Below, one piece after another: positions 23,038 through 62,078 of a stretch of 64,000 nucleotides of DNA. The notes below the pieces were generated by a model. The model was given only the letters and a program-made list of their open reading frames with translations. It ran no database searches and was not told the origin of the DNA. The stretch spans positions 62,650,609 to 62,714,608 of the forward strand of contig CP136066.1 in the NCBI GenBank assembly GCA_032622095.1, read 5' to 3'. Position numbers and translations under genes: made by a program. How positions within the stretch are numbered: position 1 is the stretch's first letter; the number at the start of each line of letters is the position of its first letter. Source of the DNA: Siphonodentalium dalli (Eukaryota > Mollusca > Scaphopoda > Gadilida > Siphonodentaliidae).

Positions 23038-23375
23038 CCGGCCAAAACCGGCCAAATAAAGCTTCAACAGCCTAAAATATATTCGGTCTGTCTCAATAGA
23101 ACCATACAAATATGGATATCATTGGAACCGGCTCCTTGACCACATTGTGATAGTTACAGTTATGCCCTGTGCCAATGCATTCTCTTATATATGCGAGTCG
23201 ACCATAGGTCGCCTCGCATATATAAGAGAATGCATTGGCCTAAACATTCTTTAACAATTTTATAATTTTTAATATGTTAAGCCAATGCATTCTCTTATAT
23301 ATGCGAGGCGACCTATGGTCGACTCGCATATATAAGAGAATGCATTGGCACAGGGCCGTTCTGTTGGGTAAAGGG
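23038..23375 (-). mobile_element. Family A double-hairpin element, copy 1
   Basis: Two 69-bp palindromes (23171-23239 and 23281-23349) are exact reverse complements of each other. The right end GTTGGGTAAAGGG is followed by TTAA (23376-23379). The left end lost its CCCTTTACCCAACA terminus. Both flanks carry AATAACGG-GATATTCAGA (22983 and 23379), so the insertion lies between duplicated or rearranged flanks. Interior spacing between the hairpins is only 41 bp. Confidence 0.85.
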
Positions 23376-23499
23376 TTAAATAACGGTGATATTCAGAACA
23401 GAAGAAAAAAAATAAAGATGTTTTTTTTGTTTGTTGAAGAAGTTATTTTAAAGAACGATTTTAAAGAATGCCCCCAAACCTCTATGAAGCCCACCCACC

Positions 23500-24450
23500 C
23501 AATAGGCGAAATTGATATTTTTCTAGTCGTTGTCTTTACCGAAAACTTATAACTCCATATTGGATTTAAACCATATAATGCAAGTATGGAAGTAGATTAG
23601 TTACGCCTTTCGTCAAATCGGTGTCTTTGTATAGGGTGGAATCTCGTATCCATAGTGAAGGCAAATGGCAAATGGATCCATTGATTCTTTCTATAAACTT
23701 TTGAACTCTACTGATCTCATTCACCTGAAAAATATCGCAAAATTCATACTCATAGGCATGAAACGATATGAAGACAACTGAGGCAGATGGCATGGTATAT
23801 TTAAGAATCACAACTGACAATTTTCATGCTAACCAGTTATCAACCAGTCCTCGTTAAGACTTAGTGCATATTGTATTATGCCTATTCGATATTTGATGAC
23901 TTAATTGCCTCTTATACATGAGTATACTCTATTTATATTACACGCAACGCTAACGATGATATACCCCAGCATATAGCATGCTTAAGAATAAGTAGTAGTC
24001 CCCTATTTCTCGACCCATGATATATTGTCGAGCACCATAATCAAAACAAAGTTACTCGAGCATTCGCAGTTAGATGGTGAATTAATTTTACTTTTACACG
24101 GTATATATTGATTCTTTATATGTTGGGGTATGGTTATATAAGCAAGCGTCGATGGCAATCGAAACTGTATTCATTTAATATGTTCGCGGGTTGATACTTG
24201 TATATATGTGTACATATGTTCTACATTATGCATGTTATTATATGTTATATATTTTCCTTGTACCATGTCAAAATGGCTGGAAATAAACAATCAATCAATC
24301 AAAGCATATAGCTAGCGGTGTGCGGCGTAGTGTCGCCATAGGCAAAATCGACTCAATACAGCGAACGCATGTTCTTTAAGAGATCGTGTTCTTGTGACCG
24401 GATGCTATCGCCTACTGTATCGACAGCATAACAATAATCCGACTCGAATT
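23500..24450 (+). repeat. Broken unit of the ~480-bp array with an insertion
   Basis: 23500-23642 and 24303-24420 are collinear parts of the tandem unit (CGAAAACTTATAACTCC through GGTGGAATCTC, then AAGCATATAGCTAGCGG onward). About 660 bp (23643-24302) is inserted between them. That insert ends AATAAACAATCAATCAATCAAA, a short (ATCA)n tail of the kind seen at the 3' end of CR1/RTE-type LINE copies. It has no long frame. Another such tail in the opposite sense (ATTGATTGATTGTTTATTTG) starts near 24448. Confidence 0.6.
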
Positions 24451-24490
24451 ATTGATTGATTGTTTATTTGCAAAACATGTGTAATATTAA

Positions 24491-24894
24491 CCCTTTACCC
24501 AACAAACCGGCCAAAACCGGCCAAATAAAGCTTCAACAGCCTAAAATATCTTGGGTCTGTCTCAATAAAACCATACAAATATGGATATCATTGGAACCGG
24601 CTCATTGACCACATTGTGATGGTTATAGTTATGCCCTGTGCCAATGCATTCTCTTATATATGCGAGTCGACCATAGGTCGCCTCGCATATATATATATAT
24701 AAGAGAATGCATTGGCCTAAAAAAAATATCTTTTTTTAACACTTTTTACCATTTTTTCTTACATTCTTTAACAATTTTATAATTTTTAATGTGTTAAGCC
24801 AATGCATTCTCTTATATATATGCGAGGCGACCTATGGTCGACTCGCATATATAAGAGAATGCATTGGCACAGGGCCGTTCTGTTGGGTAAAGGG
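24491..24894 (-). mobile_element. Family A double-hairpin element, copy 2 (intact)
   Basis: Flanked by TTAA on both sides (24487-24490, 24895-24898). Termini CCCTTTACCCAACA and TGTTGGGTAAAGGG are inverted. The palindromes lie at 24640-24716 (77 bp, with eight extra AT bases in one arm) and 24798-24868. The segment between left end and first palindrome (about 150 bp, with CCGGCCAAAACCGGCCAAA and ACCATACAAATATGGATATC) is specific to family A. TTAA plus a CCC start is the established signature of piggyBac-superfamily ends. No transposase is present. Confidence 0.9.
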
Positions 24895-25242
24895 TTAAAA
24901 CTAGACACAGCACGTAAAATCCATTAACACGTACCTTGGGTAATAACACAATTGCCAATTTAGGAATGTGTCGCATTACATGTAGATAGATATAAATATA
25001 TATATACGTTTCATCTATATCTAGTAGTATCTTAAGTAGTCTTTTTCAAGGCTAATTAAATAAAGATTTTCAGGACGCTTATGTTTTCAAGAGAAAGTAG
25101 TCCATGGAATTTATTGCGGTTCAGATTATCCCAATAATATTTTGGAATATATAGTTCACGTAGATCTTTCAGCTCCTGGCATGTGATAAAAAGTTACCCA
25201 TCACAGTACTACGAAACCGCGTACAAACATTACTTAATTGAA

Positions 25243-25435
25243 CCCTTTCATTACGGGAGCTGCGCTGGCCCAGCATTGAAGATCCTGTGCCAGTGCATTC
25301 TGTTATATATCCGAGTCTCCCATAGTGAGCCTCGCATATATAAGAGAATGCATGGGCTTACATGGTCAAGTTAAACATTGTTAGGCCAATGCATATATAA
25401 GAGAATCTATTGGCACAGCGTTTTCGCAAATCGCG
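25243..25435. mobile_element. Family C double-hairpin element, copy 1 (degraded)
   Basis: Left end CCCTTTCATTACGGGAGCTG matches copy 2 at 54017. The left hairpin (about 25290-25358) has the apical stem CTCCC-ATA-GTGAG instead of the CGACC-ATA-GGTCG of families A and B. The right hairpin has lost its middle (AATGCATATATAAGAGAATC). Ends with GGCACAGCGTTTTCGCAAA. The preceding four bases read TTGA rather than TTAA. Confidence 0.75.
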
Positions 25436-25727
25436 TACAAATAATTGCTTCCGTTCAGCCTCAGTGAGCTCATCTGTCTCATTAATTGAAGTTGTTTATT
25501 AAACAATGGTCATCTTACTGGTCAGTACCTTGAGGAAATCTAATTATAGTATGTCCATCTACGCGCTCATCGCCATATACCGGCACATTTACCATGGATA
25601 CTCATATCATAGAACGAGAAGTAGTAGCATGCCCTGGAAAGCTGGCACCACAAGATTATTGACAGCAACAGTCACGTCTTAAAGAAATGAATTTGTAAAA
25701 TATTTCATTTTACTATACTTAACTTAA

Positions 25728-26110
25728 CCCTTTACCCAAACAGAAGGGCCCTGTGCCAATGCATTCTCTTATATATGCGAGTCGACCATAGGTCGCCTCG
25801 CATATATAAGAGAATGCATTGGCTTAACACATTAAAAATTATAAAATTGTTAAAGAATGTAAGAACAAATGTTTTTTTTTAGGCCAATGCATTCTCTTAT
25901 ATATGCGAGGCGACCTATGGTCGACTCGCATATATAAGAGAATGCATTGGCACAGGGCATAACTGTAACTATCACAATGTGGTCAAGGAGCCGGTTCCAA
26001 TGATATCCATATTTGTATGGTGTTATTGAGACAGACCGAAGATATTTTAGGCTGTTGAAGCTTTATTTGGCCGGTTTTGGCCGGTTTTGGCCGGTTTGTT
26101 GGGTAAAGGG
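25728..26110 (+). mobile_element. Family A double-hairpin element, copy 3 (intact)
   Basis: TTAA on both sides (25724-25727, 26111-26114), ends CCCTTTACCCAAACAG and TGTTGGGTAAAGGG. Palindromes at 25755-25823 and 25883-25951 are both 69 bp. It is in reverse orientation relative to copy 2. The GGCCGGTTTT box near the right end is present three times instead of two. Confidence 0.92.
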
Positions 26111-26114
26111 TTAA

Positions 26115-26699
26115 CTTAAGTCATAATAATTGAAGACTTACTGGTAGTATTGTCAGCAGATTCCTTTGTAGAAAAATTAAATTTTCTTTTAAAAAATATT
26201 ATCAGCCGAAGACATGCTTACCTCACAAATAGTCAACTTGAAATTGGAGGCTTCTAATTTTGTCATAAATTTTTAATTTTCTTCATTGTTTTCTGCCAAA
26301 AAGCTCGTATTAGTAATGGTTATTTCAATAGTCTTTACATTGACGATTGTCCACTATTTTCCAATAATAAATGAGTATATATAGTCCTTAAATTTTATTT
26401 TTGGACATGAAAAACAGCAAACACATATCTTGCTGCATGGTATCTACAAGTAGTGGTGTGTAAATTGCAATCAAATAATATCAACTCTAGCTGACAGGCA
26501 CTTGCAAATTTCTGTCGATTAAATGGTTCCATAGCATACGGATATACACGGATATAGTCGATTGACTCGGGACTCCCAAGGAATTGACGTCTGACAAAAT
26601 TTGACATAGTAAATACACTCCTCCGCAAAAGACTACCCTATAGCTCATTCATAACGATTATGAATTTCAAGATGACAGAAATAAACTTCGCGATTTTGA
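26115..26699. other. No gene seen
   Basis: AT-rich. The 77-codon minus-strand frame at 26395-26628 has no recognisable content. Confidence 0.35.
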
Positions 26700-27900: not shown

Positions 27901-27940
27901 GATTGCCATGAAAAACTAGAAAAGAAGAAAGATATTCAGG

Positions 27941-28255
27941 GGCGTGGCGCAGTTTGTAAGTTGCATGGCACATTAGGCCAACATAAGCCGTCCAGTAATG
28001 GCGAAGCTGGTTCAAATCCCGAATGGTGCGTATGCGGTGATTAACACACACGCTTGCAAGGTAAACTGATTCGGCAAGTTTGGCAATTACATTCCAGTGG
28101 TTGGTGGTTTATACGTGCAATGGAATAAATTGCTGAAGTGAAACTAACCCTTTGTCAATTACATTCCAGTGGTCGGTGGTTTATACGTTCAATGGAGTAA
28201 ATAATTGCTGAAGTGAAACTAACCCTTTGTCAATTACATTCCAGTGGTCGGTGGT
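27941..28255 (+). mobile_element. tRNA-derived SINE-like element
   Basis: Begins like a tRNA: an A-box-like TGGCGCAGTTTGTAAG at 27945-27960 and a B box GGTTCAAATCC at 28009-28019, the spacing normal for an internal RNA polymerase III promoter. The arms do not form a clean tRNA cloverleaf, so it is not a functional tRNA gene. A non-tRNA tail follows. It contains a 72-75-bp unit (CAATTACATTCCAGTGGT at 28084, 28156, 28231) repeated nearly three times. Confidence 0.7.
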
Positions 28256-28260
28256 TTATA

Positions 28261-29519: not shown

Positions 29520-30278
29520 GTGAGAAACAGTGATTTCCGCTCATCAAAGTGGGGAATATTATCACCCCAACACCACCTTAATTTATAATTATTCGACATT
29601 AACTTCTATGGTGAACTTGGTGTATCATCGCGACAATCGGTTTCGTACTTGACCATTAATCACCGTGTGATCCATCAATTGATTACACGTCATTGGTTTG
29701 ATATGGAGCATCTCCGGGCGAGTATCATTAATATCGAGTACGCCATATGGTTTCTGAAGAACCGAGTCAAGGTCGATTGCCCTCGTGTGATTCCGTATAG
29801 GTTAATTCTCCGTTATCGTTTCGGATATTATTGAGCTTGAGTGCGCATCCTCATTGTGGATTCGGCGTTGTAAGTGTTGTTAATATATAACATATCCTCG
29901 TGCAAATAGGTCCATACTGGACCTAAATATTCACATTGGTTCCTATTGAACTAATTTGATTCTGAAAGAAGCCAGTTATTATTGAGGAGATGGCTCCACA
30001 TTAGCGCCTGGCGCTTGATGTCAAATCCTCTTCACTCAAACTTACCATACCTACGCATATATATGAACATCATCTTGTAAATTGTTGTATACATCTGGGA
30101 CACAAAATAGGTCATGTTTACACTAAGCCCGTTATTCCGTTTTATGGCGCGGGCCACAGCGAAAACACATTGTAACGAGCATACATCTGGGATGTCGATA
30201 TAGGTTGATATATATATATTAGAGAGCGCAAACACACAAAAAAGTTCATCAGCTTATTTTCAGAAGAACAGGCTGTCA
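29520..30278. other. No gene seen
   Basis: Non-coding. A 61-codon frame at 29649-29834 has no recognisable content. Confidence 0.35.
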
Positions 30279-30280
30279 TA

Positions 30281-30439
30281 TAAGGATTAACTGTCATGTG
30301 AACTGTTGTTATGGAGATGTAACGGTGAGGTAAGTGGACATAACTTGTGTAAAACCCGAAGGGTTTTACATACAAGTTATGACCACTTACCTCACCGTTA
30401 CATCTCCATAAAAATAGTCCACATGACAGTTAATCCTTA
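30281..30439. mobile_element. 159-bp palindromic MITE
   Basis: TAAGGATTAACTGTCATGTG at the left is matched by its reverse complement at the right. The stem continues almost to the centre (AAAACCCGAAGGGTTTT near 30353-30369). Ends abut TA dinucleotides. Single copy in this window. Confidence 0.8.
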
Positions 30440-30441
30440 TA

Positions 30442-31380
30442 TTTATATACATTTAGCGAAAAAGCCACTTTTGTAAATTTATTTAAATCGAAAAGTGTAT
30501 CGTGACAAGATCAGCCCAAAATACCCAATAGCACCCTTGGCAAAAGTTAATAGGAACAATTTCTCTTCATATTGAAACCCGATGATGTATTAAGTCAGTC
30601 AGGCTGCGCGAGTCCAAATGCGCCCAAAACATTACGCGTTCGTCTGTCCAAACCTAATGACGTATCGATGGTGTTATTAGCTTGGTGTCATGAGGCGTTG
30701 CGCATTCACCGAGAAATAACTGCAACTAGCCACGTGGGCGCCGACCAATCAGAATGCTGGATTTAGTGATGACAACACTTAGTGTGTAAATATATATATA
30801 TATCAATTTGGATATCAGACCCACATGTAGTTACGTTGCATATATGTGAAGGCAGTTGTCATACCAGCATAGCGAGGGGACTGAACTCTATCTTGCAGCT
30901 TTCCAGTTACGTTGCCACAACCTGACGTGTGTCCCCAGCGCCGGTGACGTATGGCCCCAATAAGAAACTGTGGTTAACATGAGTGGGAAAATGATACATG
31001 TATGTATTCAACGCATGTGGGCGGGTGTAGGTATAGTACGTGATATTATGGAAAAGGGAGACAGTAGCACAAAATAACACGGTATCATGCATGGCCAAAC
31101 TAGATTTATCGGTGTCTATTGAATATAGGATACATTGAATATATTCGCAAAATATGGACGCGAGCCTGGGACGGGTTATTGTGTGAGCTGTGCATACATG
31201 TATATAACACAACAGTCCATCGTCCTTACATGGTAGTGGGTGGGGTGTCATTAATTCGCGCGCATTGTCGCTGTCCTACTTAAATTGTGGGAGGGGAGGG
31301 ACATGTTACTTCTTTACTGCGGTCAATCGTTTGTCTTTTTATACCCAGGTGAGGTTATTTGCCATATGCAAGAGGTTCCA
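30442..31380. other. No gene seen
   Basis: The frames at 30572-30766 (+) and 30907-31251 (-) lack recognisable features. Includes a short AT repeat near 30789-30804. Confidence 0.35.
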
Positions 31381-31384
31381 TTAA

Positions 31385-31875: not shown

Positions 31876-32303
31876 ACATATATATAGGGCGTCGCGGGTC
31901 CACTCATGAATTAACCTTTTTACTTCGAGTGCTGGGCCGTTGACGTTATGGCCATTTTCCAGTGGAAAAATATAACGGGATATCACGAAAACCATAAAAC
32001 TATTCAGTTTGAAAGGCTATCATCATTCACAATCGTGGAACATCATACACTGTTTGAAACTGCGAGATATAGTTGTTCTGATGCACCAATCTCTTAGTTC
32101 CAGTTAGTGCTAGTGTGACGAAGTAGGTCCGTACTCAGTACGGACGTATATCACACGGCGTGACATTTTACGTCCGTACTCAGTACTGACGTATATATCA
32201 GCCAAGATGTTAAAATGACAGCGTTATGATAGAACGCATCGTAAAATCTTAATAGCTAACTAGACATCTTTGTGGTTAAAGCACGTTTGAGAATGCGCCT
32301 TAA
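31876..32303. other. No gene seen; short inverted/direct repeat
   Basis: GTCCGTACTCAGTACGGACGTATAT near 32127-32150 is a 16-bp palindrome. It recurs with one change near 32171-32196. Otherwise unassigned. Confidence 0.5.
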
Positions 32304-32673
32304 CCCTTTACTCAACATAACGGCCCTGTGCCAATGCATTCTCTTATATATGCGAGTCGACCATAGGTCGCCTCGCATATATAAAAGAATGCATTGGCTT
32401 AACACATTAAAAATTATAAAATTGTTAAAGAATGTAAGAAAAAATGGTAAAAAGTGTTAATGCATTCTCTTATATATGCGAGGCGACCTATGGTCGACTC
32501 GCATATATAAGAGAATGCATTGGCACATGGCATAACTGTAACTATCACAATGTGGTCAGTGAGCCGATTCCAATGATATCCATATTTGTATGGTTTTATT
32601 GAGACAGACCCAAGATAATTTAGGCTGTTGAAGCTTCATTTGGGCGTTTCTGAGCGTTCTGTTGGGTAAAGAG
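32304..32673 (+). mobile_element. Family A double-hairpin element, copy 4
   Basis: TTAA at 32300-32303 and 32674-32677, with ends CCCTTTACTCAACA and TGTTGGGTAAAGAG. First palindrome 32330-32398. The second (about 32461-32524) has lost its first few bases. The CCGGCC boxes at the right are eroded to GGGCGTTTCTGAGCG. Confidence 0.88.
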
Positions 32674-32991
32674 TTAACTTCGTACATGCAATGAGCTAAT
32701 AGACGTAAATGCATCCGACGATCCTGCCGACACCATGCACACCGTAATCTAGGTATACCCGCACACAACTTTTATTATGACTTCCTTCCCATTTCTCTGC
32801 ATGAACCAACTCAACACATTATTTTGTTACTCATTTTACCTGTTCCATTGTCCGTGAACTACATTCCTGCCATGTCATGACTTATTTATTTAAAATTATT
32901 CTTATGTTAGTCTACACAGGGGATGGCCGACGCGGATGGACACTAGTATGGTAACGATGCGCACTGCTTATTTGTACAAATCATGCTACAT

Positions 32992-33535: not shown

Positions 33536-34290
33536 GGTATTTAGTGAACTATTCGTTCATTATCGGCAACTGTTCCCATTTCTTCTGAAGAGATTTCGCT
33601 AAAAGATGACAACGATAAATTTATAAAAAATCCAGTTGTTATAATTTGTATTCCTTGATTTCAGAACGAGTTCTCTAATGTTTGTGACATGCGCAAGAAA
33701 TTACTACAACTAGAAGGCGCTTGATAACATAATCTGGTATGTTTATGCATAATATGTTAAGACAAATCATTTCTCAATCCCTTCGTGCAATTATGATGTC
33801 CTTATGACCAGTCAGAAATTAACAATAACACTTTGAATGTAGGTACCCACGAAATATTTGGACAAGGATGCACACTGGTTATTGGGTATATGCGTGAATC
33901 CGTAACAATAACCAGTGTGCATAGTTACCCCAATATTTCTTGGGTAACTACTTTCAAAGTGTTATTGTGAATTTCACTATTGGTGGACATCAGGAATGCA
34001 GGAAGAGATTTAGAATTGATTTGTCTTAACATATGCATAAAATACCAGATTGGGTTATCAAGTGATCTCTCGTTTCAATACTTTCGTGCAGGTGTCTCGA
34101 AATTGAGAGAACTCGTTCGGAAATCTAGCAATAAAAATAAAGGTGATATTTGACGAAAATTCTACGCTGTAATAAAAATAAAGGTGATATTTGACGAAAA
34201 TTCGACGCTGTCCTCTTCTAGAGAAATCTCTTCTGATGTAATCGTTCAATAATCAACAAATAGTGCTCTAAATTACATAGTACCTGGACC
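33536..34290. mobile_element. Foldback element, ~0.75 kb
   Basis: Arms of about 350 bp face each other around a centre near 33890. Paired landmarks: GATTTGTCTTAACATATGCATAAA... against TTTATGCATAATATGTTAAGACAAATC (34016 and 33743), AATAACACTTTGAA against CTTTCAAAGTGTTATT, and GCACACTGGTTATTG against CAATAACCAGTGTGC. The right arm carries an extra 49-bp tandem duplication (AATAAAAATAAAGGTGATATTTGACGAAAATTC-GACGCTG), about 34130-34210. No internal gene. Confidence 0.8.
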
Positions 34291-43384: not shown

Positions 43385-44427
43385 CATACAGTACAGGGTT
43401 TACCTCCCTTGACGACTCGATATCACCGCTTCTATGGGCGACATTCTACCCACATTTGGTGGACTTCCGCGATATTAATATATGTGACCCGCCATATCAA
43501 ATCCAGTCGTAAGTCGGGATTTTTTTTTTAACCTGTGCCGATGCATTCTCTTATATATGCGAGTCGACCATAGGTCGCCTCGCATATATAAGAGAATGCA
43601 TCGGCCTAACAATTATTAACAATTTAAAAAAAAAATTCTTGTATTCTTTAACAATTTTATATTTTGACCCATACAGAGCCTCAGACAAACATGAGCAGAC
43701 GACACTCTTCTATATGCTTCTATATATGTGTAGGGCTCCCTGCAGGGTAATGGATGTTTTTTATTTTATGTCCTAAAAATTGTAAGAAACATTTATTTAA
43801 AAAAAATTATAAAAAATTGTTAGGCCAATGCATTCTCTTATATATGCGAGGCGACCTATGGTCGACTCGCATATATAAGAGAATGCATTGGCACAGGGTA
43901 ACAAAAATCCCGACTGGATTTGATATGGCGGGTCACATATATACTAAGCGAACAGAGCAACATGTAACATGTTGCCCCTATGAAGCACACAAAATATCGA
44001 ACAACATTTGTGTAATTTCGTGATTTAAGTTTGGAAATTCCCACAAGAAGCAACGAACTATATTGCGATACGGTGTAATTTGGTTCTTAGATTATTTTAT
44101 TAACACAAAAGTCTAAACGCACATGGACGACATTGACAAGACAAGTCATATACAAGAGTTATAATTTGCTGCAATTGTTCCGAGTAGCTTGCGAACATCG
44201 TAAAAAAAAACGACCGCTCTAATTCTCCATTCTGCCATTAAGTTTTTAGTGCGGAAATTGTCCTCAAAGCACTTTTGGAAATTTGAATTTGGGGTAACCA
44301 TTTTCGCCATTTTGCCTGGAAAACCCCGCGCTAAATATAGAAAACAATAGACAAGTACCCATCCGGTGACAGTGTCAGAAAGGAAGTATGACTGGTTCGC
44401 TCTGGTAGAGATTGGTGCAATGTACCT
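43385..44427 (+). mobile_element. Family L element, copy 2, interrupted
   Basis: Collinear with 63265-63840: GGGTTTACCTCCCTTG, CCACATTTGGTGGACTTCCG, then after the insertion ACTAAGCGAACAGAGCAACATG and on to GTATGACTGGTTCGCTCTGG. A family B element (43482-43938) sits inside it. A family A element sits at its right edge. Only the right part of the full family L element is present. Confidence 0.8.
43482..43938. mobile_element. Family B double-hairpin element, copy 1
   Basis: Ends ATGTGACCCGCCATATC and GATATGGCGGGTCACAT, followed inside by CAAATCCAGTCGTAAGTCGGG. Palindromes 43537-43605 and 43824-43892. The first has GCCGATGC/GCATCGGC in place of GCCAATGC/GCATTGGC, changed on both arms. The core (43668-43764) is in the opposite sense from the copies at 53 and 60 kb. 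Flanks are AT-rich and no TTAA is involved. Confidence 0.92.
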
Positions 44428-44431
44428 TTAT

Positions 44432-44823
44432 CCCTTTACCCAACAGAACGGCCCTGTGCCAATGCATTCTCTTATATATGCGAGTCGACCATAGGTCGCC
44501 TCGCATATATAAGAGAATGCATTGGCTTAACACATTAAAAATTATAAAATTGTTAAAGAATGTAAGAAAAAATTATAAAAAGTGTTAAAAAAAGATTTGT
44601 TTTAGGCCAATGCATTCTCTTATATATGCGAGGCGACCTATGGTCGACTCGCATATATAAGAGAATGCATTGGCACAGGGCATAACTGTAACTATCACAA
44701 TGTGGTCAAGGAGCCGGTTCCAATGGTATCCATATTTGTATGGTTTTATGGAGACAGACCGAAGATATTTTAGGCTGTTGAAGCTTTATTTGGCCGGTTT
44801 TGGCCGGTTTGCTGGGTAAAGGG
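44432..44823 (+). mobile_element. Family A double-hairpin element, copy 5, at TTAT
   Basis: Ends CCCTTTACCCAACAG and GCTGGGTAAAGGG, palindromes 44458-44526 and 44606-44674 (69 bp each). The four bases on both sides are TTAT (44428-44431, 44824-44827) rather than TTAA. Interior closest to copy 3. Confidence 0.92.
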
Positions 44824-44827
44824 TTAT

Positions 44828-45710: not shown

Positions 45711-47269
45711 TATACCCATCCGGTAAATGCGAAATATACACAAGGAAACACTCCCCATAGTTTGTATCGATAAGCCTTTCCGTGTGTATTTTGATGGTGC
45801 GTTTTTAGAGAATTGGTTATCGTATAATTTCTACAACACAATTATCGCATTGTTTGGCAGCTCGACATTGGGTTGCACGAAGTTGCATTTGGTGTTCGGT
45901 CCATATATATAGCCACACCGGTGCAGTGCGGATAGAACAAAAAAAATGCCAAAAACAAAGTAACGAGGGTATGCGTGGAATACTTGGCACTATAGACGTG
46001 GCTATAGGGTTTCCGTTGGGGGGGGGGGGGGGTGTCCATCTTGGAATTTCCAACTGCACCACACCATTAAGCCTCACTAAAGTTTGCGTAATTCAATTTG
46101 TACCGCCCTGCGGCTTTAATTTTCCCCAAATGGTCCCTCACAGACGACTGGGTGGTGGCCAATTCTAAATGGATCTGTAGTTATGTGGTCACTATAGTCA
46201 GGGGGAGGATGGTTCGGCCCATAATGAGAACAGTTTTAGATCAGAACAGGAAATTACAAAATCCTAACATCTAGTCGTTTAACGCCAGGCAAATGCACAC
46301 CCCGGTTTGTTTTTCTTAAAGTAATTAGTAGTATTTGACTGTCTACTTTGGAGGGCCGAGGACAAATGGGGCTGACGATGGTTCGGCCTGTGTGAGAACA
46401 TTTTGAAATCTGAACATGACAAATATGGAAATATGGAAAATCCTAGCATCTAGACTGGCCTCAAGCTTTCTAATTATTGGAAATTTCCAACCCGACGCCC
46501 CCATAAAGTTAGAAAATTGCCAACTGATGGCCATTTCAGTCAAAACTTTTGACATAAAATAGGAAAATATGCAAAATTTATGTTGGTCTAAAAACAACAT
46601 TTCGCCACTAGCATACATGTACTGTTGGAAAATCAAACTGCGGCAACAATTTAAAGCTATTGTTGGTGTGAAATTTCCTACTAATGTTGTATCAAGTATG
46701 AAATTTTCAATTGCTGAATTTTTTTACTGCAATTGGGGATGAGACACCCGCACCCCACCCCACATCCACTGCCCCCTGACCCCACGTCCCTGCTTGTTAG
46801 CGAATGCCAATGGCGCGGTTTGGCAATCACTGAAGACGAAAAGCGTCCATATTATATCTTGTTGAAAAAAATATAGATATTTTAGAGAAGAAGAAGACTA
46901 CAGTGAGTAGAAATCAGGGAGCCAATAACAAGGCATGGGCTCTGATAACCTGATAATCACAAAACTAAACGAAAGACATCAAACCAACCAAAATGGGATG
47001 CAGTAGCATATAATATATACATATAATTATATATTATATGGCCTCTTTGTTGGCCTCTCGATATATATTCGGTCTCTAAAAACCCTTAAACCCACACGAC
47101 GTGCGATTTCCTCGCACTCCTTTGCGCAAATTCTAGTATAAAAAAGTTTGTTTATTTCAGAATAGTTCATATATAGAATCTGACCAGACATAAACACCGC
47201 TGATTCCATTACCCCACGCCGGGTACCAGGTTACGGCCAACCACAGGCACACACACCATGACTACAGTA
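45711..47269. other. No gene seen; poly-G tract
   Basis: A run of 14 or so G at 46018-46031. Several patches carry GTTGGAAATTTC-like words (46480-46740) that also occur at 6260-6300, 6690-6740 and 47650-47740. The frames on both strands near 45.8-46.2 kb overlap one another and show no domain. Confidence 0.45.
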
Positions 47270-47472
47270 ATGCCCTAAATAATCGAATCCTTAACCATAG
47301 CAGAATTATGAGTAAGTTTTCAGGATTTAGTCGGAAGTATGGCTTGTTGCCATTCATCGGAAAACTCTCAGTGAGAGCTTTCCGATGAATGGCAACAAGC
47401 CATATTTCCGACTACATCCTGAAAAATTACCCATAATTATGCTGTGGTTAAGGAGTCGATTATTTAGGGCAT
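47270..47472. mobile_element. Family F palindromic MITE, 203 bp, copy 2
   Basis: Same ends, same length and same centre as 13239-13441, flanked by TA (47268-47269, 47473-47474). Differences are scattered single bases. Confidence 0.9.
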
Positions 47473-47992
47473 TAGTGTAAATACAGGTCAACAGCGCGCC
47501 GGTTTTGTGTACGGTTATATCTCGCATATACCCATACGTATATATAAACGGGCTACAAGCATTTGACCGCAGCATGACATCCGACGAGACAAAAGTAAAA
47601 AGTCCTATATTCTTGATGTGTATGCAATCAACAAATTTAAACTATTGGAAATATCATGACTGACACAATACTAGTTGGAAATTTCAACCTAAAAACTATG
47701 TTGAAATTATCCTGATAGTTTGAATTTTCAACCAATATTTAGCGTGAAATTTGTAATTTTTAGACAAAAAGTCGATTATTTTCGTACCTTCGATGAAATG
47801 TTTGGACTGAGACAATATAAATTGCCCACAATGGAAAGATTGAGATTCCGGTTGGAAAAATTGGAAAATGTTAACCCAATGGCGTGTGCTAGGGATTTTT
47901 GTTTCTATGTTAGGAAATCTGGTCTGGTGCAAGGGGTGGGATCAGTCGGATATTCTGAGTTGAACACACACAAATTGACATACAGTACCAGT

Positions 47993-49297: not shown

Positions 49298-49718
49298 GAT
49301 CAACACTCAGTGTTACACCGACTTACCTCGTGGCGAGCTCACGCGAGGTCAAGCGTCTGTGGCTAACCAATTTATTTCGCTAAAATGAAAGGTTGTTTTG
49401 ACAGTAGTTAATTATGATCACGTGACAAGTTTGAACGTCGTAAAAGAACTCGATCGGATGGCAAGTGATTCCATTTGTAATAAAAAACAAAAGCTAACAC
49501 ACATCGTTTCTATGTATTGTCCGTTAATGGAAGCACTAAACACGTGGTCTTAGTCACGTACGAGACTTTGCTGCCGTTCTAATACCTATATTTGTCGATC
49601 GAATATCGCCGCAAACGAGAGCTCGTCTCGGTCATTAGAATCGGCACCACAAACAGGACGACAGCGACACACGTCGACAACAGTTGAATTTTGACGTCGT
49701 CTAGTCGGTCTTTCAATC

Positions 49719-50852
49719 ATGGCAGACGACATGTTTTCGGACACGACCGATCTGTCGGTGTCTCGGTACTTTCCAGATAACATGACGACGAACACGACTA
49801 TGTTTCCCGATTCGAACTCGACGGATCACGGACCGACCGACACGGCATTGATAGTCGGGAGTATTGTCATGTCCGTCGCTTTAATTTGTGGAATCATCGG
49901 CAACATCCTCGTCATGATAGTCGTGATTCAACGTCATGATATGAACAATGTCATCAACATGTTTATCGTCAGCCTGTGCGTGAATGACATCCTCAACCTT
50001 AGTATCAACAACATGATGGTACTCATGTCGTACATTCTAAACTCGTTTCCGGGTGGACTACTCGTTTGTGAACTGGCTACGCACTTTGCCGTTTTACTCA
50101 TGGGTAGTTCCTTGTGGCACACTGGTCTGATAGCCGTGCATAGACTAATTGTCGTTTGCTTCAATACATTCTACAAGAGAATCTCGAAGCGGTCGTACAC
50201 GATTTTCGTTCTGGTGTTTGCCAGGGTCGTGCCTTTACTGTTCTTGATCAACCCGAATCTCGGGACAATGGCTTACTACGAAGAAAAACTAATAAGATGC
50301 ATAATCAAAAAAGAGTTCGGCATCATTTCATTCTTGGTTAGTATCATTTTGATGATGTTGCCATCGGTACTTTTAATTCTGTGCTACATAGCAATTTTCA
50401 TCAAAGTTTACAAAGCGTCAAGCTCAGGCGCGTTCACCACCACGAGAAAACGTGAATGGTTACGGCGGGAAATTCAAATCACTAAAATGTTCGGCATGGT
50501 TTTCTTGCTGATAATGATCGGATATCTCCCTTACGGGATTGTTCGAGCGAAGGACCCGAAGCTGCAATTCAGTGCAGATTTCTACGTGGGAATAACTGTT
50601 CTATACGCGGTTGCCAATAGCGCAAACCCACTCGTGTACGGAGTAATGGATCGAACGATCCGCATCGCCATATTCCGGATTCTGCGCATTGATAAGTGTT
50701 GTGAGCAGAAAGAGGAGCCATTAAAGTACAATGAATCGGTAAGATCGGTAGCGGAACCGCAAGACCAGACGGACACTACACCTTTGAATAACTCAGACAA
50801 TAGCACGTGTAAAGGAAATGGTAGCACGAATGCCATACAAACAGACCTCTGA
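49719..50852 (+). CDS. Rhodopsin-class (class A) G-protein-coupled receptor, orphan
   Basis: A complete 377-residue seven-helix receptor in one exon; it should sit in the plasma membrane and signal through G proteins. The outside N-terminus has NxS/T sites at N21, N25 and N33. Helix 1 has GN (N62, position 1.50) and helix 2 has D90 (2.50). C117 (3.25) probably bonds to C194 in loop 2. Helix 3 ends HRL (141-143) in place of DRY, keeping R142. Helix 5 has P215 and Y223. Helix 6 has GYLPY, with P271 at 6.50 and Y269 instead of W at 6.48. Helix 7 has NPLVY (303-307). C327-C328 may be palmitoylated. The C-terminus TDL fits a class I PDZ ligand. The start ATCATGG is a fair Kozak context. By memory it recalls moody/melatonin-like or GPR84-like invertebrate orphan receptors, but I cannot name ligand or subfamily. 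No other gene is near enough to suggest its role. Confidence 0.95.
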   Translation: MADDMFSDTTDLSVSRYFPDNMTTNTTMFPDSNSTDHGPTDTALIVGSIVMSVALICGIIGNILVMIVVIQRHDMNNVINMFIVSLCVNDILNLSINNMMVLMSYILNSFPGGLLVCELATHFAVLLMGSSLWHTGLIAVHRLIVVCFNTFYKRISKRSYTIFVLVFARVVPLLFLINPNLGTMAYYEEKLIRCIIKKEFGIISFLVSIILMMLPSVLLILCYIAIFIKVYKASSSGAFTTTRKREWLRREIQITKMFGMVFLLIMIGYLPYGIVRAKDPKLQFSADFYVGITVLYAVANSANPLVYGVMDRTIRIAIFRILRIDKCCEQKEEPLKYNESVRSVAEPQDQTDTTPLNNSDNSTCKGNGSTNAIQTDL

Positions 50853-53326: not shown

Positions 53327-53757
53327 ATGTGGCCCGCCATATCAAATCCAGTCGTAAGTCGGGATTTTTTTTTACCCTGTGCCAATGCATTATCTTATAT
53401 ATAAGAGAATGCATTGGCCTAACAATTTTTTATCATTTTTTTGAAATAAATGTTTCTTACAATTTTTAGGACATAAAATAAAAAACATCCATTACACTGC
53501 AGGGAGCCCCACACATATATAGAAGCATATAGAAGAGTGTCGTCTGCTCATGTTTGTCTGGGGCTCTCTATGGGTGAAATTATAAAATTGTTAAAGAATA
53601 CAAGAAAAAATTATTAAAATTGTAAAAAATTGTTAGGCAAATGCATTCTCTTATATATGCGAGGCGACCTATGGTCGACTCGCATATATAAGAGAATGCA
53701 TTGGCACAGGGTAAAAAAATCCCGACTTACGACTGGATTTGATATGGCGGGTCACAT
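53327..53757. mobile_element. Family B double-hairpin element, copy 2, with shortened hairpin
   Basis: Ends ATGTGGCCCGCCATATC and GATATGGCGGGTCACAT. The second hairpin is full length (53637-53705). The first is only 38 bp (53381-53418): its 31-bp centre is gone, leaving both base arms equal. Core ACCCTGCAGGGAGCCC-like block and TGGGGCTCT form their own inverted pair. Confidence 0.92.
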
Positions 53758-53779
53758 ATAACTAAATAAATAGAACGAC

Positions 53780-53914: not shown

Positions 53915-54016
53915 TCTGTCACGTGACCGGAAGTAACACGAACATGCATTAGACAGTATTGTTTATATATTCCAACTATCGACATATCATTTCCGAGAAT
54001 GAAATAAACTATTTAA

Positions 54017-54256
54017 CCCTTTCATGTCGGGAGCTGCGCTTGTGGAGCATTATAGATCCTGTGCCAGTGCACTCTTATACATGCGAGTCTCCGCATATAT
54101 AAGATAAAGCACTGGATTACAAGGTCAAGGTAAATATTGTTAGGCCAATGCATTCTCTTATATATGCCAAGCTCACTATGTGAGACTCGCATATATAAGA
54201 GAATGCATTGGCACAGGGTTTTCACAAAATTTCAGAAAGCTCCAGTCGTGTAAGGG
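54017..54256. mobile_element. Family C double-hairpin element, copy 2
   Basis: TTAA at 54013-54016 and 54257-54260. Ends CCCTTTCATGTCGGGAGCT and AGCTCCAGTCGTGTAAGGG. The right hairpin (54144-54212) has apical stem CTCAC-TAT-GTGAG in place of CGACC-TAT-GGTCG. The left hairpin (about 54062-54115) is shortened, with CCAGTGC matched by GCACTGG. Total 240 bp. Confidence 0.88.
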
Positions 54257-54260
54257 TTAA

Positions 54261-55410
54261 AATATGCACTTCCCCTCAATCATTCGATGCAGGTACATTA
54301 AAAGCTTTGTGCGATGCTACCTGTTAGAGCGGAACACTTGGATTGACCAAATAGGCCTAGCTAAATAAATAGTCGACGGCATGTCAGAATTTTGGTATGG
54401 GCACGTGAATATTAAATTTGCGGCGGGTGGAATTATTTAGAAAAAAAATGCCAGCCTAATTTCGTGATTCAAGTATTTCACGGTAACCGTTTTAAATTTT
54501 AAATACATATCCGATTTTGTTGTAAAGCGAAAGAATGATTTTAGAAGTCTTACGACTTGCTATGATAGTTGTTGATACTATATGCTACTTGGTGCGACAG
54601 AGAGAATGTTGTTTGTGAAAGGAATCGTTTATGTTGTGGCCGGTAGATTTCACGATAATGTTAGCAATACTTTGAAAGAAAAAAACTTTTTAGGTTCAAC
54701 TGATTTTGTTATTTACTTTGTCATTTCTCTGGGGTATTACTCGACGTTGGGCGTCATTGCAATGAACAATCAGGATGTAACTTTGGATTCCAGATTAAAT
54801 AGAACATGGAAATAATCAAGATATACCGTAGCCAGATTTAGCCTTACGGGCTGTAACTTGTGTCGTGTGTTGTTGCGGTATAAATACCATAGATAAGAAG
54901 ATGCACCTGGGGATAACATTCACACGATTTCAAGACGATAAACCACCACAGTTATAGATATCGGAAGTAAGTGTAGCAAAATGTATAAACAAGAGCCGGA
55001 AAAAATGCCGCCAACACTACTACCTCCGATAGGCTTATTTGGCTTCAATCAAAATCAATATACGATCTTTCCACACGGGCGAATCCCATTCTCCCATTGC
55101 CTGCATACTGTTCGTCGCTCAATCGATTAATATAATATTTTTATTTGTCTTTGCTACACGTTGGACACAATATTTCAAAACGGAATGTACGTGTATGCGA
55201 AATTTAATCAAGTGATGGGAGTCAATCACGTGATGTGAGTGAGTCGTGTGACGTGATACAGGGGACGTTCTTTGGTAATGGCAACACACGTTACAGTTTA
55301 CATGCGCATGTGGCTAAACATGGCTATTATCAACAGAAATGTTCAGAGACATGTATACTATATTACTTCTGACTCGAGGAGCTACATACTGCATAATGTG
55401 GTGATGGGTT
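54261..55410. other. No gene seen
   Basis: Non-coding. The 77-codon frame at 54582-54815 ends in a plausible hydrophobic stretch, but I see no domain and no splice sites to support it. Confidence 0.35.
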
Positions 55411-55414
55411 TTAA

Positions 55415-56048
55415 CCCTTTCTATACTAAAGCATCATTGACGAGTAGTTATCCCATAGAAAATGTTCAGATAATAAGTTTAACCCTTTCTATACTAAAGC
55501 ATCATTTAGGAGTAATTATCCCATATAACATGTTCAGATAATAAGTTTAATCCTGGCTATACTAAAGCATCATTGATGAGTAGTTATCCCCTATGAAATG
55601 TTCAGATAATAAGTTTAACCCTTTCTATACTAAAGCATCATTTGTTGAGTAGTTATCCCATAAGAAATATTCAGATAATAAGTTCAACCCTTTCTAATCT
55701 AAAGCATCATTGATGAGTAGTTATCCCCTATGAAATGTTCAGGTAATAAGTTTAACCCTTTCTAATCTAAAGCATCATTGATGAGTAGTTACCCCTTATG
55801 AAATGTTCAGATAATAAGTTCAACAAACAATATATGGTAACTTTTCAGATAATAAGTTCAACGAACGATCATATATCGTTTTGTTGAACTTATTATCTAA
55901 ACATTCCCTCAATTAATAGGACTCCTTCTGTACTTGTATTTACCTGTCATCTGCTTATATTACCTGTGCATTTCTGCAAATCAATAATAGAACATTCCGA
56001 TGTACATTTTTTTATCTGACTTGGAGAATACATTTAGTATATAAAGGG
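55415..56048 (+). mobile_element. Family E TTAA element with amplified left end
   Basis: TTAA at 55411-55414 and 56049-56052, ends CCCTTTCTATACTAAAGC and TTTAGTATATAAAGGG. A 68-bp unit that includes the terminus itself is repeated six times (starts 55415, 55483, 55551, 55619, 55688, 55756). Each ends TGTTCAGATAATAAGTTTAA. The right part (55876-56048) matches the degraded copy at 13471-13695. No coding sequence. Confidence 0.9.
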
Positions 56049-56083
56049 TTAACTGCATGAACCTCGAAGTGTACATAAGGTTA

Positions 56084-56612: not shown

Positions 56613-58747
56613 TGCTGGCAAATTTTCCTGGCATTTTTCTGACAATTCGTCGCAAAGGGGTAAAGTTTGATAGAATTGGATATGCATAAGCATAAACACA
56701 GCCGACACGAGCGTGACAATGAGATTGTCGATACGACACGAGTACCATGCCGGAAGGATACGAGAGGCACACTCTCGAGTTATATCCTTCGTCGATATCA
56801 CAAGTGTCCTATCGATAAACCCACTCACACACGTTATGTATTTATTATCGCCACCCGTCCTAGAATACAAGTAAACAAACACTTACCAGGTTTACACAGA
56901 AACAGACAGTGGTCGTCTTGCCATGTGTGGCGATGCTTTTAATTTTTTTAGTTCTGGTTTCATGGTGAGGCGAACGTTATTTACGGCGGATGACGTACAC
57001 GTCGTCCGATTCCACACACGTGTGGAATCGCTTGAAAAAGAAGACACAGCCCAAGTCGGCGGAACGTTTTAGTAAATTAGAACAGGCGTGAAATACAACT
57101 ATTTACTACATGGTCAGTGAGCTCACTTATACCGCGACTATTAAATTATTGCCATATGACTCGCGGAAGTTAGAAGCTTTAATTAGCAACAAAATAATCG
57201 AAAAAACAAAACAACTTGCAATTCGTAATACTTTCACACAAAGCGCTGCAACAGCCAACATATATCCACATGAGGCGAACTGCATGATCATCTACGAGCT
57301 ATATATGTCAACAACATAATTATCCTCATGCAAATAGGCTCATACTGAAATCATATTCGCATATGTTCATATTGTGCTTATGCTATTCTGAAATAAGCCA
57401 ATGATAGATTTAATCGTAGTATAACGTCGAGTTGAAATGGTCACATCGGTGGATCAAACTAGTCGCCAACGCGTTCAACGACCACACGATTAATTCACTT
57501 TTTGTGATAACAATGTCTGACATGACACGAATTTCATGTTAAAATACATTTTTATTCGTCATAAATTACACGAGTAACAAATAAACACACAGAGAACAGT
57601 ACAAAGCAGTGCAAATACAAATTAATCGATTATATGATTTATTATTATACATGTATATTATTATATATGTATTACATTCCTATGTGTGATTTACCTTGAT
57701 TTCTCGAGTGATCATAAACTAGAAATTAGAAAACCAAACATTGTGAGAATCCGTTGACAGAGAGCGGGAAAACGCAAGTTCACAGTAAAGTATACACATA
57801 TGACGAAATGTCTTGTTTAGCTTGTAATGAGTTAAGACGTGTTGATTTCAAGAATGATAATATCTGAAACTAACAATTCAGTTTCGGCTGTGGATAAGAA
57901 ATTGATAAAACGTTGATCTGCCATAATGATATATTTGTGAGGTCGGGGGAATATTTATAGCGGCAAGGAAAATGATCAAACTCTACTGAGGTTATTTGAA
58001 CGTCAGCGATAAGTAACACCAAACGTATTGTATGGTCGCTCGGTTGTGCATTTGTCTGCGGTATCTCAGTATTAGCTACAGTATAATGCTATTGTGCAAC
58101 TATGTGGTCCGCGGTGCTCATGTAAGAAGACCGAACTGGAACCTTAGCCTACACCATAAAACGAATTAACGGTCGCACAACGCATTTCAATTGCAAATTA
58201 AAAACGATAATTATGCAAATGAGCAAACATCATTGTAAACAGAGTGTATATATCCTAGCTGTGAGGTGAGACATCTCCGCACGTTGTACTTTTCATGACA
58301 ACAATTGTCGAGATGTGGGTTGTGTAATCAGAGCTAGGAGGTGAGTTGTAGGTGCAGGGTAAGAACCCTGATTATAGATGGACGTGCTGAATACTCAAGC
58401 AGTCGTTTATGTCCGATTATCCCCGGTGAGTTCCGGGATCAATGTGTTAATAAACCTATGAACGACATTGAAAGTGACGTCACGGTACGTTAATATGTTT
58501 ATGAACACATTGACTCAGAGGGCGTGTCTAACGTAACACTATGGGGAAATCGGAAGCGATATTATGTGTATGTAAATATACATAAATGGCCATGTTAGCA
58601 TCAGAACGCATGGTCAACTCAGACCAGGTTTGACAATAGGTTCCGATGTTCACCCATGTTGGATGCGGACCTACAACCGTGTGCACCTTGTCTAACACAG
58701 AAGGATTTTTGTTTTGCAACTGATGATGGTCCTATTTTGAAGAAGGT
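56613..58747. other. No gene seen
   Basis: About 2.1 kb of non-coding DNA. The overlapping 90-codon frames at 56601-56942 on both strands lack recognisable content. ACACACGTGTGGAATCG (57014) is a small palindrome. Confidence 0.35.
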
Positions 58748-58751
58748 TTAA

Positions 58752-59194
58752 AGACACATGGCGGTTTGCGCTCAAAAATACACATATTATTCGCTTTTGA
58801 ATTTTTCTCAGTATAGATATAGGTCGATATATATTTGAACTACCTTTCTACGAACATTGTGTAACCCAAAACGACGCAATGAAAAAATACATGTGTGAAC
58901 ATGGTGTTTGGGTTCCAAACACATTGGGTCCCAAACACAAAACAGCCATTTGCACGACATGGAGCATAAAAGAGCGTTCCGTAGTAGTCTATTCCTGATG
59001 TGGTAGAAATAAAGAGCGTTTATCTGACTTCTGGCGAAAAGTTGAAAACGGCTGAAAAATGGCTGTGACTTTGGTAAGTGCTTTTCAGAGCATATGAAGC
59101 CGGTATACCAATAGTTCGTTTATTTATCGATTATCGTATCCGTCGCTCCAAATTACGTAGAACAAACTTGGGGGTTCGAATGAGCCATGGCCGT
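58752..59194 (-). mobile_element. Family I TTAA-flanked element, copy 2
   Basis: TTAA at 58748-58751 and 59195-59198. Inverted relative to 29015-29434. Ends AGACACATGGCGGTTTGCGC and TTCGAATGAGCCATGGCCGT. Contains an added duplicated GTTTGGGTTCCAAACACA / TTGGGTCCCAAACACA segment. Confidence 0.75.
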
Positions 59195-59198
59195 TTAA

Positions 59199-60053
59199 TA
59201 TTAAGTTATTGAGTACGAAATGTTTGATCAGCGGATTTGTCTGGACGACCGGGCTGACGGAACAAACCCATTTCTAAGGTTCCGCAATTACAGCATAAAG
59301 GGACCAGGGGGCACCAGCCCCCAAAATCTCTTTTATTTTAACTTTCGAGTAAGAGCATGATATTTGTTCTGATAGCACCTGGATACTATACCTATTATAA
59401 CATTAGAACCTTAGAAATGTTTTTTTTTGCAGCATTTTCAGATTAGGGGTCTTTTTGCACGCCCCCAACAAACGTAAACAATCACTTCTATTTTCTTGAT
59501 ATTTGCTATGGTTAATCTCAAATATGTACTAAACACAAAACCACAACTTAAGTCAATTTCTGCAGCATTTTCAGATAAGAAAGGGTAGTTTGACCCAACC
59601 CTTAAAACTGTGGGATTCGTAATTAGTCTGGGATTTTATAGCCTGGGATACCCCTGCACTACTAGGACTTAACTTCATCCAACTAATTTTCTTCCTTAGT
59701 TTGCCCCTCAATGTTAGCATGAAAACTGTGGACACCAGACTCTAGTTGGAAAAACTTGTTTCACATCCCAAAACAGGATGGCTACGAAGGTCTATCGCTC
59801 GCTGTCAATATACATGCATGTATGCCAACGACATGTCGAATTTTATTATACCAACTTCCAAGATGACGACAAAGCTAAGTAAAGACTCTATGTGGGTTTG
59901 GAAGACGACAGTAGCGTGGTCAGATTTCCCGTGGGAACCGGTCTAAAGACGCCTATCATTATGTCGCCGTGTGCCGGTGGAACCAAGTAGATAGCGCATA
60001 ATTTATTGAGAAACTTACTCGCGTTAATACAAAAAATAAGCAATATGTGAGTC
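59199..60053. other. No gene seen
   Basis: Two similar blocks carrying GCAGCATTTTCAGAT (59431 and 59561) suggest an old duplication. Frame 59746-59946 is unassigned. Confidence 0.4.
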
Positions 60054-60514
60054 ATGTGACCCGCCATATCAAATCCAGTCGTAAGTCGGGATTTTGTTTA
60101 CCCTGTGCCAATGCATTCTCTTATATATGCGAGTCGACCATAGGTCGCCTCGCATATATAAGAGAATGCATTGGCCTAACAATTTTTTATAATTGTTTTA
60201 AAATAAATGTTTCTTACAATTTTTAGAACATAAAATAAAAAAACATCTATTACCCTGCAGGGAGCCCCACACATATATAGAAGCATATAGAAGAGTGTCG
60301 CCTGCTCATGTTTGTATGGGGCTCTGTATGGGTGAAATTATAAAATTGTTAAAGAATACAAGAACAAATTATTAAAATTGTAAAAAATTGTTAGGCCAAT
60401 GCATTCTCTTATATATGCGAGGCGACCTATGGTCGACTAGCATATATAAGAGAATGCATTGGCACTGGGTAAAAAAACCCGACTTACGACTGGATTTGAT
60501 ATGGCGGGTCAAAT
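60054..60514. mobile_element. Family B double-hairpin element, copy 3
   Basis: Ends ATGTGACCCGCCATATC and GATATGGCGGGTCAAAT. Palindromes 60107-60175 and 60395-60463, both 69 bp; the second has ACTAGC for ACTCGC. Core (CTGCAGGGAGCCCCACAC ... GGGGCTCTGTATGGG) in the same sense as copy 2. Confidence 0.92.
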
Positions 60515-60876
60515 ATTGCAACCTGTGTGATATACGTTATATCTTGTCCAAAAAAGTATGAAACGTTTTTACATTACACAACAATATATTGCTGCGACGA
60601 AGCGTTTTTCGATCCTTAAATGATTACATTTATAATACTTTGGAATGCAGTTGCATCCGAAATTTCAATTTACACTGGCAGATACCACACACATGGAACA
60701 ACTTCCGACACAGACATATAATTGTGATTAATTACTTGTATCTGTGGTGTCTTCCGAAGCACAACTCAAGTCCATGTGTATCATTGTAGTTTGCTTCCAA
60801 ATTTGAATACAAATAAGATCAATTTTGTATTAACACTAATCGTACAAACTATCAATCAAACAATGCGTGATTTTCT
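60515..60876. other. No gene seen
   Basis: The 66-codon frame at 60589-60789 has no recognisable content. Confidence 0.35.
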
Positions 60877-60880
60877 TTAA

Positions 60881-62078
60881 CCCTTTCAGTGCCAAGGAAC
60901 GATCTCATCGGCCCCAATTTACGGTCTATAGATTTTTTTTTTTGGTTGAATTTTTGTAGGGTATGCTTAACTGGTTAAAACCTTAGGGGCATGTTATAAC
61001 TCAAAAATATCACCAAGTATTCATAGTAATAATTTTGATGCCCATGAAAAACGTAAGATTCCCTGGCACTAAACCTACAAAATAAGTCTGGCACTGAAAG
61101 AGAATAGAATATAAGACAAAATTATTAAAATTGTAAACAATTGTAAACTAGAGGTGTGACTGTCCCAATGGGACTACGGATACCCCCCCTGTTTTTAAAA
61201 TACTAAGATGTTTCACATGTCAGTAAACATTTAGTTAAAATAATAAAATAACAGTTCCCATTGCAGGTGTACAACCATAACCTTAATCTTTAACCTATTG
61301 ACCAAAAAATGTAAGAATAAAAGCTTGGACAAAATTATGTATGTTGCGGAAAAAATTCTAAGTCGAAAAAGGGGAATAACTCCAAACAAAATATGTCGGA
61401 CAGACGTCATAATCGCAGGTGCACAGGTTCCCATGGTACTAAATGTCAGTGCCAAGATTAAAAAACATTGACCGAAAAATGTAGGAATAAAAGCTCGGAC
61501 AAAATTATGCATGTTGCAAAAAAAGTTTCTAAGTCTAAAAAGGGGGATAACTCCACCAAACAATGTCGGACAGACGTCATAATCGCAGGTGCACAAGTTC
61601 CCATGGTACTAAATATCTGTGCCACGTTTTTAAAAAATTGACCGAAAAATGTAGGAATAAAAGCTCGGACAAAAGTATACATGTTGCGAAAATTTTCTAA
61701 GTCGAAAAAGGGGGGATAACTCCAGCAAAAAAAGTCCGACAGACGTCATAATCGCAGGTGCACAGGTTCCCATGGTGGTTGATGTCTGTGCCAAGTTTCA
61801 CGGAAATTGATCAAAAAACGACTGAGAAAAACTCCGGACAAATATGTGTCCACGGACGACGACGGACGGACGGACGACGGACGGACAAGCTGACTCCAGT
61901 ATACCCCCCTAAATTCGTTGCGGGGGGTATAAAAATAATAACAAATGATGAACATTTGTTAGGCCAATGCATTCTCTTATATATGCCAGGCGACATATGG
62001 TCGACTCGCATATATAAGATAATGCATTGGCACAGGGTATATGGGTTGATACAAAAATCGGACTTGGCACTGAAAGCG
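60881..62078 (+). mobile_element. Family D composite element with one hairpin
   Basis: TTAA at 60877-60880 and 62079-62082. Ends CCCTTTCAGTGCCAAGG and TTGGCACTGAAAGCG, a close match to piggyBac-type termini. Another GGCACTGAAAGAG occurs inside (about 61091), so a smaller element with the same ends may lie at the left. An interior block (AAAATTATTAAAATTGTAAAC) matches family B. Only the right hairpin is present (61963-62031). A foreign repeat (61147-61935) sits in the middle. Confidence 0.8.
61147..61935 (-). repeat. ~170-bp tandem repeat unit inserted in family D
   Basis: CAGACGTCATAATCGCAGGTGCAC recurs at about 61400, 61570 and 61741 (period about 170). A GACGGACGGACG run (61857-61890) and a short inverted pair, ATACCCCCC...GGGGGGTAT (61908-61930), follow. 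The left edge has GGATACCCCCCC. This end structure is, from memory, common in molluscan-type genomes. The 121-codon minus-strand frame is repeat translation. Confidence 0.75.

Follow-up and report, generated by a model that had tools for sequence, protein, structure and literature searches.

What is a near-perfect 69-bp hairpin doing, in inverted pairs, inside small mobile elements whose outer ends differ from one another? The question is raised by a 64-kb stretch of the scaphopod mollusc Siphonodentalium dalli (GenBank assembly GCA_032622095.1, contig CP136066.1, positions 62,650,609 to 62,714,608, forward strand), here called the window, from which all element statistics below are drawn. We found 21 recognisable copies of the hairpin in 11 elements, 18 with an intact apex and three with a deleted apex or centre (53381-53418, 54064-54115 and 25391-25414), together with a one-arm remnant; this surpasses the tally of an earlier, sequence-only reading of the window, which put the number at 14 or more, in about ten elements. 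An inverted pair is present in ten of the 11 elements and a single hairpin in the remaining one (60877-62082), so that copies in the window are not mostly single, a state that the same reading held would speak against a specific function. The elements form four families with differing outer ends, and the proposal of a modular transposon system is well supported, with one core, four kinds of outer end and TTAA or TA borders.

Read from its outer side inward, the hairpin has a T·C mismatch that separates a paired arm of 27 bp from an apical stem of 5 bp, which is capped by an ATA loop; on the other strand the mismatch is G·A and the loop TAT. This is the anatomy described before. CCCTGT or a close variant lies directly outside the hairpin and is common to the elements, giving the shared core order CCCTGT-hairpin-AT-rich spacer-hairpin-ACAGGG, and the hairpins are internal to the outer ends wherever these are readable. 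A chance origin is excluded: in the window 15 palindromes were counted, of whatever kind, whose arms pair over 20 bases or more and whose loop is at most 7, as against none in each of 20 first-order Markov simulations. Folded as DNA, the hairpin at 60107 reaches -35.4 kcal/mol (z = -15.6). All 18 intact hairpins have the T·C mismatch and the ATA loop in one polarity; the earlier claim that the mismatch is retained holds for every intact copy, yet since the independent lineages are few, these 18 amount to about three events. The inverted polarity within pairs is expected of any inverted-repeat arrangement and is no extra evidence by itself. Exact reverse complementarity, which had been claimed for each pair, is found in three of the ten paired elements (23k, 25.7k and 44k) and not in the other seven: among the seven pairs with both apices three are exact and four are not, and the other three pairs have a one-sided apex deletion. 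The elements and their hairpins are as follows.

23035-23379, minus strand: family 1 element (23k); hairpins 23171-23239 and 23281-23349, exact reverse complements; TTAA at 23376-23379, long-arm end near 23035 without the terminal TTAACCCTTTACCC
24487-24898, minus strand: family 1 element (24k); TTAA duplication 24487-24490 / 24895-24898; hairpins 24640-24716 (8 extra AT-repeat bases) and 24798-24868 (2 extra)
25724-26114, plus strand: family 1 element (25.7k); TTAA at both ends; hairpins 25755-25823 and 25883-25951, exact reverse complements
32300-32677, plus strand: family 1 element (32k); TTAA at both ends; hairpins 32330-32398 and 32456-32524
44428-44827, plus strand: family 1 element (44k); TTAT at both ends, a non-canonical 4-bp duplication; hairpins 44458-44526 and 44606-44674, exact reverse complements
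43483-43937, minus strand: family 2 element (43k); ends TGTGACCCGCC, TA-flanked; hairpins 43537-43605 (one compensated pair, A-T to G-C) and 43824-43892
53328-53756, plus strand: family 2 element (53k); TA-flanked; hairpins 53381-53418 (left, without apex) and 53637-53705 (right)
60046-60513, plus strand: family 2 element (60k); TA-flanked; hairpins 60107-60175 and 60395-60463; left end with an apparent 9-bp tandem duplication, judged by eye
54013-54260, plus strand: family 3 element (54k); TTAA at both ends; ends CCCTTTCATG / CCCTTACACG; hairpins 54064-54115 (apex deleted) and 54144-54212 (apical stem CTCAC/GTGAG, mismatch kept)
25236-25425, plus strand: degraded family 3 element (25.2k) with one clear end, TTGAACCCTTTCATT on the left; hairpins 25290-25357 and 25391-25414 (centre deleted)
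60877-62082, plus strand: family 4 element; left end TTAA-CCCTTTCAGTGCCAAG, right end CTTGGCACTGAAAGCG-TTAA; one hairpin, 61963-62031
3118-3191, plus strand: remnant with a family-3-like left end; one hairpin arm, 3153-3191

Outer ends and their borders

Terminal inverted repeats are present in all four families. Family 1 has ends of the CCCTTTACCCAACAGAACGG type with the short terminal repeat CCCTTTACCC, and its five copies are bordered by TTAA on both sides in three cases, by TTAT on both sides in one and by TTAA at one end only in one (23k). The occurrence of TTAT on both sides of one copy, as against TTAA in three, suggests that these 4 bp arose by duplication and do not belong to the repeat. 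TTAA also stands at both ends of the 54k and family 4 elements. Family 2 ends in TGTGACCCGCCATATCAAATCC with TA on both sides in all three copies, and TA, being self-complementary, could belong to the terminal repeat. Terminal starts of the CC[C/T]T type are found in family 1, in family 3 and at the left end of family 4 (CCCTTTCAGT); the right end of family 4 reads CGCT. In the four family 1 copies with both ends, the distance from hairpin to tip is 24-25 bp at one end and 147-157 bp at the opposite end, the duplication included.

The outer arms of different families are not clearly similar as compared by sequence. Among the 15 pairings of six arms, only the left and right arms of family 3 and the short and long arms of family 1 surpassed all 500 shuffles. 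The next closest were family 4 with family 2 (20 of 500 shuffles as good), the left arm of family 3 with the long arm (37) and the short arm (44) of family 1, and family 4 with the left arm of family 3 (45). Some outer ends may thus share a distant common origin. A homology between the subterminal arms of families 2 and 4 was considered and not adopted, as 112 of 2000 shuffles were as good in a run separate from the one with 20 of 500.

Three of the elements show further peculiarities. A 19-bp direct repeat with one difference lies on either side of the 23k element (22982-23000 and 23378-23396) and, with the loss of the far terminal repeat, looks like the trace of an aberrant insertion or repair event. 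The AT-repeat gains in the two 24k hairpins fall at the same alignment place, in the inner arm, which suggests linked slippage or exchange between the two. In the family 4 element (60877-62082) a left hairpin was not found; a stretch of 170-bp tandem repeats and CGGACGG motifs at 61150-61930, bounded by TACCCCCC and GGGGGGTA, seems to interrupt its interior.

Base pairing, conservation and decay of the hairpin

Over the 14 distinct rows among the 21 hairpins, 95.4% of cells are paired and five of 32 pairs have changed on both sides, a number reached in 4 of 500 shuffles (mean 1.4); controls with the pairing slid never had more than one. Of the five, three belong to the apical stem of family 3 (CTCAC/GTGAG versus CGACC/GGTCG), which is re-paired around the same mismatch and loop, with one family 3 copy having lost one pair. 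The other two are in the outer stem of the left 54k hairpin and in the left 43k hairpin, where A-T has become G-C.

Families 1 and 2 share a hairpin sequence. Of 15 of their hairpins, a set that excludes the left 53k hairpin with its deleted apex, eight are identical to one 75-bp sequence: six family 1 hairpins and two from family 2. When the 44k and 60k copies are compared, the alignable spacer differs at 6 of 53 sites and the hairpins at 2 of 150 (Fisher p = 0.0045); 44k and 53k differ at 5 of 53 spacer sites and 1 of 75 hairpin sites (p = 0.08). Within families we counted variable sites with gapped columns dropped, so that length changes do not enter the counts. The hairpins of family 1 vary at 3 of 138 sites and its long outer arm at 21 of 132 (p = 6e-5).

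Within single copies most substitutions disrupt the pairing. Families 1, 2 and 4 have 14 intact hairpins when the length-changed 24k pair is left out, and of the ten substitutions in these, eight break a pair while two make up the compensated pair of 43k. This is what resident copies free of selection would show, and any constraint would therefore act on the mobile source elements.

Precedents and readings of the paired hairpin

The closest precedent, as judged by description, is a group of miniature inverted-repeat transposable elements (MITEs) of the corals Acropora millepora and A. palmata, the CMITEs. As set out in that account (PMC2872659), these are TTAA MITEs with CC[C/T]T ends and differing terminal repeats, in which one internal region is more conserved between families than the ends are, and its authors speculate that this region matters for transposition. 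The conserved internal sequence under differing ends is matched here by the identical 75-bp hairpin of families 1 and 2. The CMITEs described there are about 100 bp long with one 75-bp internal region, whereas the mollusc elements measure about 250-470 bp, with one of 1.2 kb, and differ further in their two inverted hairpins (in all but one element) and in having a TA-flanked family; neither "palindrom" nor "hairpin" occurs in the main text of the CMITE paper. The group shares the CMITE logic, and what sets it apart is the pairing of hairpins, the larger size and the TA-flanked family.

A second comparison is with piggyBac, in which, by the accounts in PMC7351741 and PMC11707139, a dimer of the C-terminal cysteine-rich domain (CRD) binds a palindromic 19-bp internal repeat, and the internal repeats lie at unequal distances from the two tips. 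In the related descriptions of piggyBat, imperfect subterminal palindromes occur at the left end only and low activity is ascribed to a subterminal inhibitory sequence (PMC7351741, PMC11707139). The TTAA target, the subterminal palindromes and, in family 1, the unequal tip distances are alike in the mollusc elements, but the palindromes described for piggyBac and piggyBat are imperfect and about 14-19 bp long and the hairpin here is near-perfect, 69 bp long and keeps its apical mismatch. MSITEs such as Microuli, as described in PMC2872659, also have subterminal inverted repeats in TTAA elements; they lack terminal inverted repeats, which are present here. Foldback or palindromic MITEs are likewise non-coding and hairpin-forming, yet there the whole element is one palindrome and here short hairpins are paired inside other ends.

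It is plausible that the hairpin is functional. The reading that we favour, without yet calling it probable, is that of a subterminal module acting in cis, kept through transposition and exchanged among mollusc MITE families. A cis-site is preferred because the hairpin occupies a zone comparable to that of the piggyBac palindromic repeats. The elements would be non-autonomous DNA transposons moved in trans by transposases, piggyBac-like and duplicating TTAA for families 1, 3 and 4, and Tc1/mariner-like or similar and duplicating TA for family 2. The hairpin would then be a subterminal signal for transposition, most likely a symmetric site bound by the DNA-binding domain of the transposase or by a host partner, if the likeness to piggyBac extends so far. 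The core may have passed between families through recombination at identical hairpins, for example during gap repair, an event that would have swapped the outer ends around it. Selection would act on source copies only, and inserted copies would decay. Going further, the double hairpin could be a transferable transposition cassette that serves both TTAA- and TA-duplicating transposase systems, read as a folded or symmetric site to which the T·C mismatch gives polarity, with swappable outer ends and a retained amplification signal; this we regard as unlikely. The success of MITE amplification and the origin of families with new ends both call for explanation; a core that is constant under changing ends, as reported for the coral CMITEs, points to an internal signal. 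The core here is a discrete, foldable and easily mutated module that opens the question to assay, and it would be one module in both TTAA and TA elements.

Several observations weigh against a selected cis-module. Family 3 by itself supplies four of the five covarying pairs, and template switching could have produced them. The four changed hairpins of families 1 and 2 sit in only three copies, so independent lineages are few. A near-perfect 27-bp arm exceeds the needs of a dimer site. A transposase was not matched in the Pfam scan (10 of the 35 open reading frames, ORFs, of at least 100 aa) and no autonomous copy was seen in the window, so that binding cannot be inferred from a partner protein. 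The sequence-only reading had proposed decay at the neutral rate of flanking bases as a check, and here the outcome is mixed: family 1 hairpins do change more slowly than the long outer arm, but no more slowly than the short inner spacer (3 of 138 versus 1 of 36, p = 1), and the hairpins of family 2 vary like the rest of the element (5 of 107 versus 27 of 315, p = 0.21). The contrast in family 1 moreover rests partly on the 32k copy, though with this copy omitted the hairpins still vary at fewer sites, 0 of 138, than the greater part of the outer arm, at 9 of 108 (p = 0.0005); the spacer then varies at 1 of 41 (p = 0.23).

The main alternative is a functionless palindrome kept symmetric by template switching (quasi-palindrome correction) that looks conserved because its copies are recent, which we consider a serious if doubtful possibility. 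According to PMC8794818, template switching can introduce compensatory changes at several bases at once and mend the pairing of existing stems. The apex loss in three of 21 hairpins and the AT-repeat gain in two are a sign of replication trouble, and the pair-breaking substitutions and the family 2 decay fit a passive palindrome as well. Long correction tracts, however, would be expected to remove the T·C mismatch or to flip the loop, and both are unchanged in all the intact hairpins, although these lineages are few and tracts may have been short; recent amplification alone also leaves unexplained why family 1 and 2 hairpins are more alike than the adjacent spacer. Nesting, in which the core CCCTGT...ACAGGG would be a mobile element in its own right that had entered unrelated older MITEs, has in its favour that this core is built like a long inverted-repeat element, starts with CCCT and occurs in several contexts. 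We nevertheless think it quite unlikely and prefer exchange of ends and core by recombination, because the differing ends flank the same core without junction duplications: none stands beside the core in families 1, 2 or 3 (GAACGG/CATAAC, TTTA/TAAA and AGAT/TTTT), family 4 offering one readable junction, and the window contains neither a core-less copy of the family 1, 2 or 3 ends nor a complete core outside them.

An expression signal is a very unlikely explanation. The arm sequence TATATAAG could serve as a two-way core promoter or, if transcribed, the hairpin could yield double-stranded RNA or a microRNA-like precursor, and among the 15 family 1 and 2 hairpins examined TATATAAG is present rightward in 14 and CTTATATA leftward in all 15. 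These bases are, however, no better conserved than their neighbours, a 3-base loop is small for a microRNA precursor, and Rfam has no family at gathering score in the window. A rolling-circle origin is scarcely credible. Helentron/Helitron-type elements occur in molluscs and carry a terminal stem-loop, but here hairpins lie near both ends, inside inverted ends with TTAA/TTAT duplications or TA flanks, and the 4-bp duplications in particular argue against it.

Searches, coding content and other repeats

Our searches of an open-licence PMC library listed no earlier description of the paired 69-bp hairpin core, and the hairpin letters had no match there. The 27-base arm pattern had no match in IMG/VR, the 20-base arm pattern none in the bacterial and archaeal genome set, and a phage comparison of one family 2 element was empty; no predicted protein containing the open frames of the hairpin was found at E 10 or better. 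A 17-mer from the end of the core matched 15 viral contigs, and the best agreement with the hairpin among the matches listed was an isolated 27 of 29 bases. About 140-150 bases of ten of the 15 were read and held no hairpin, and we took these matches as chance or coding sequence.

One clear gene was found among the ORFs scanned, a G-protein-coupled receptor at 49695-50852 (Pfam 7tm_1). Its best named relatives are mollusc melatonin-receptor-like or unnamed proteins with 57-64% identity, for example 59-61% in Mytilus, 64% in Pinctada and 57% in Argopecten, which points to mollusc nuclear DNA.

The window also contains other repeats. Two copies of a 217-bp near-perfect palindrome (13232-13448 and 47263-47479), with CAGTAATGCCC-like ends beside TA, are probably a foldback MITE of the mariner type. 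Two more foldback elements, whose arms measure 71 and 70 bp, lie at 30278-30442 and 33815-33975; TTAA stands near the ends of the first. At 55410-56050, TTAACCCTTTCTATACTAAAGC is repeated in a 68-bp tandem array (55410-55824) and AAAGGGTTAA is found near 56043; this is possibly a TTAA element with internal tandem repeats. A 353-bp tandem repeat of about 9.5 copies with 97% matches occupies 16961-20307, and its G+C content is above that of its surroundings.

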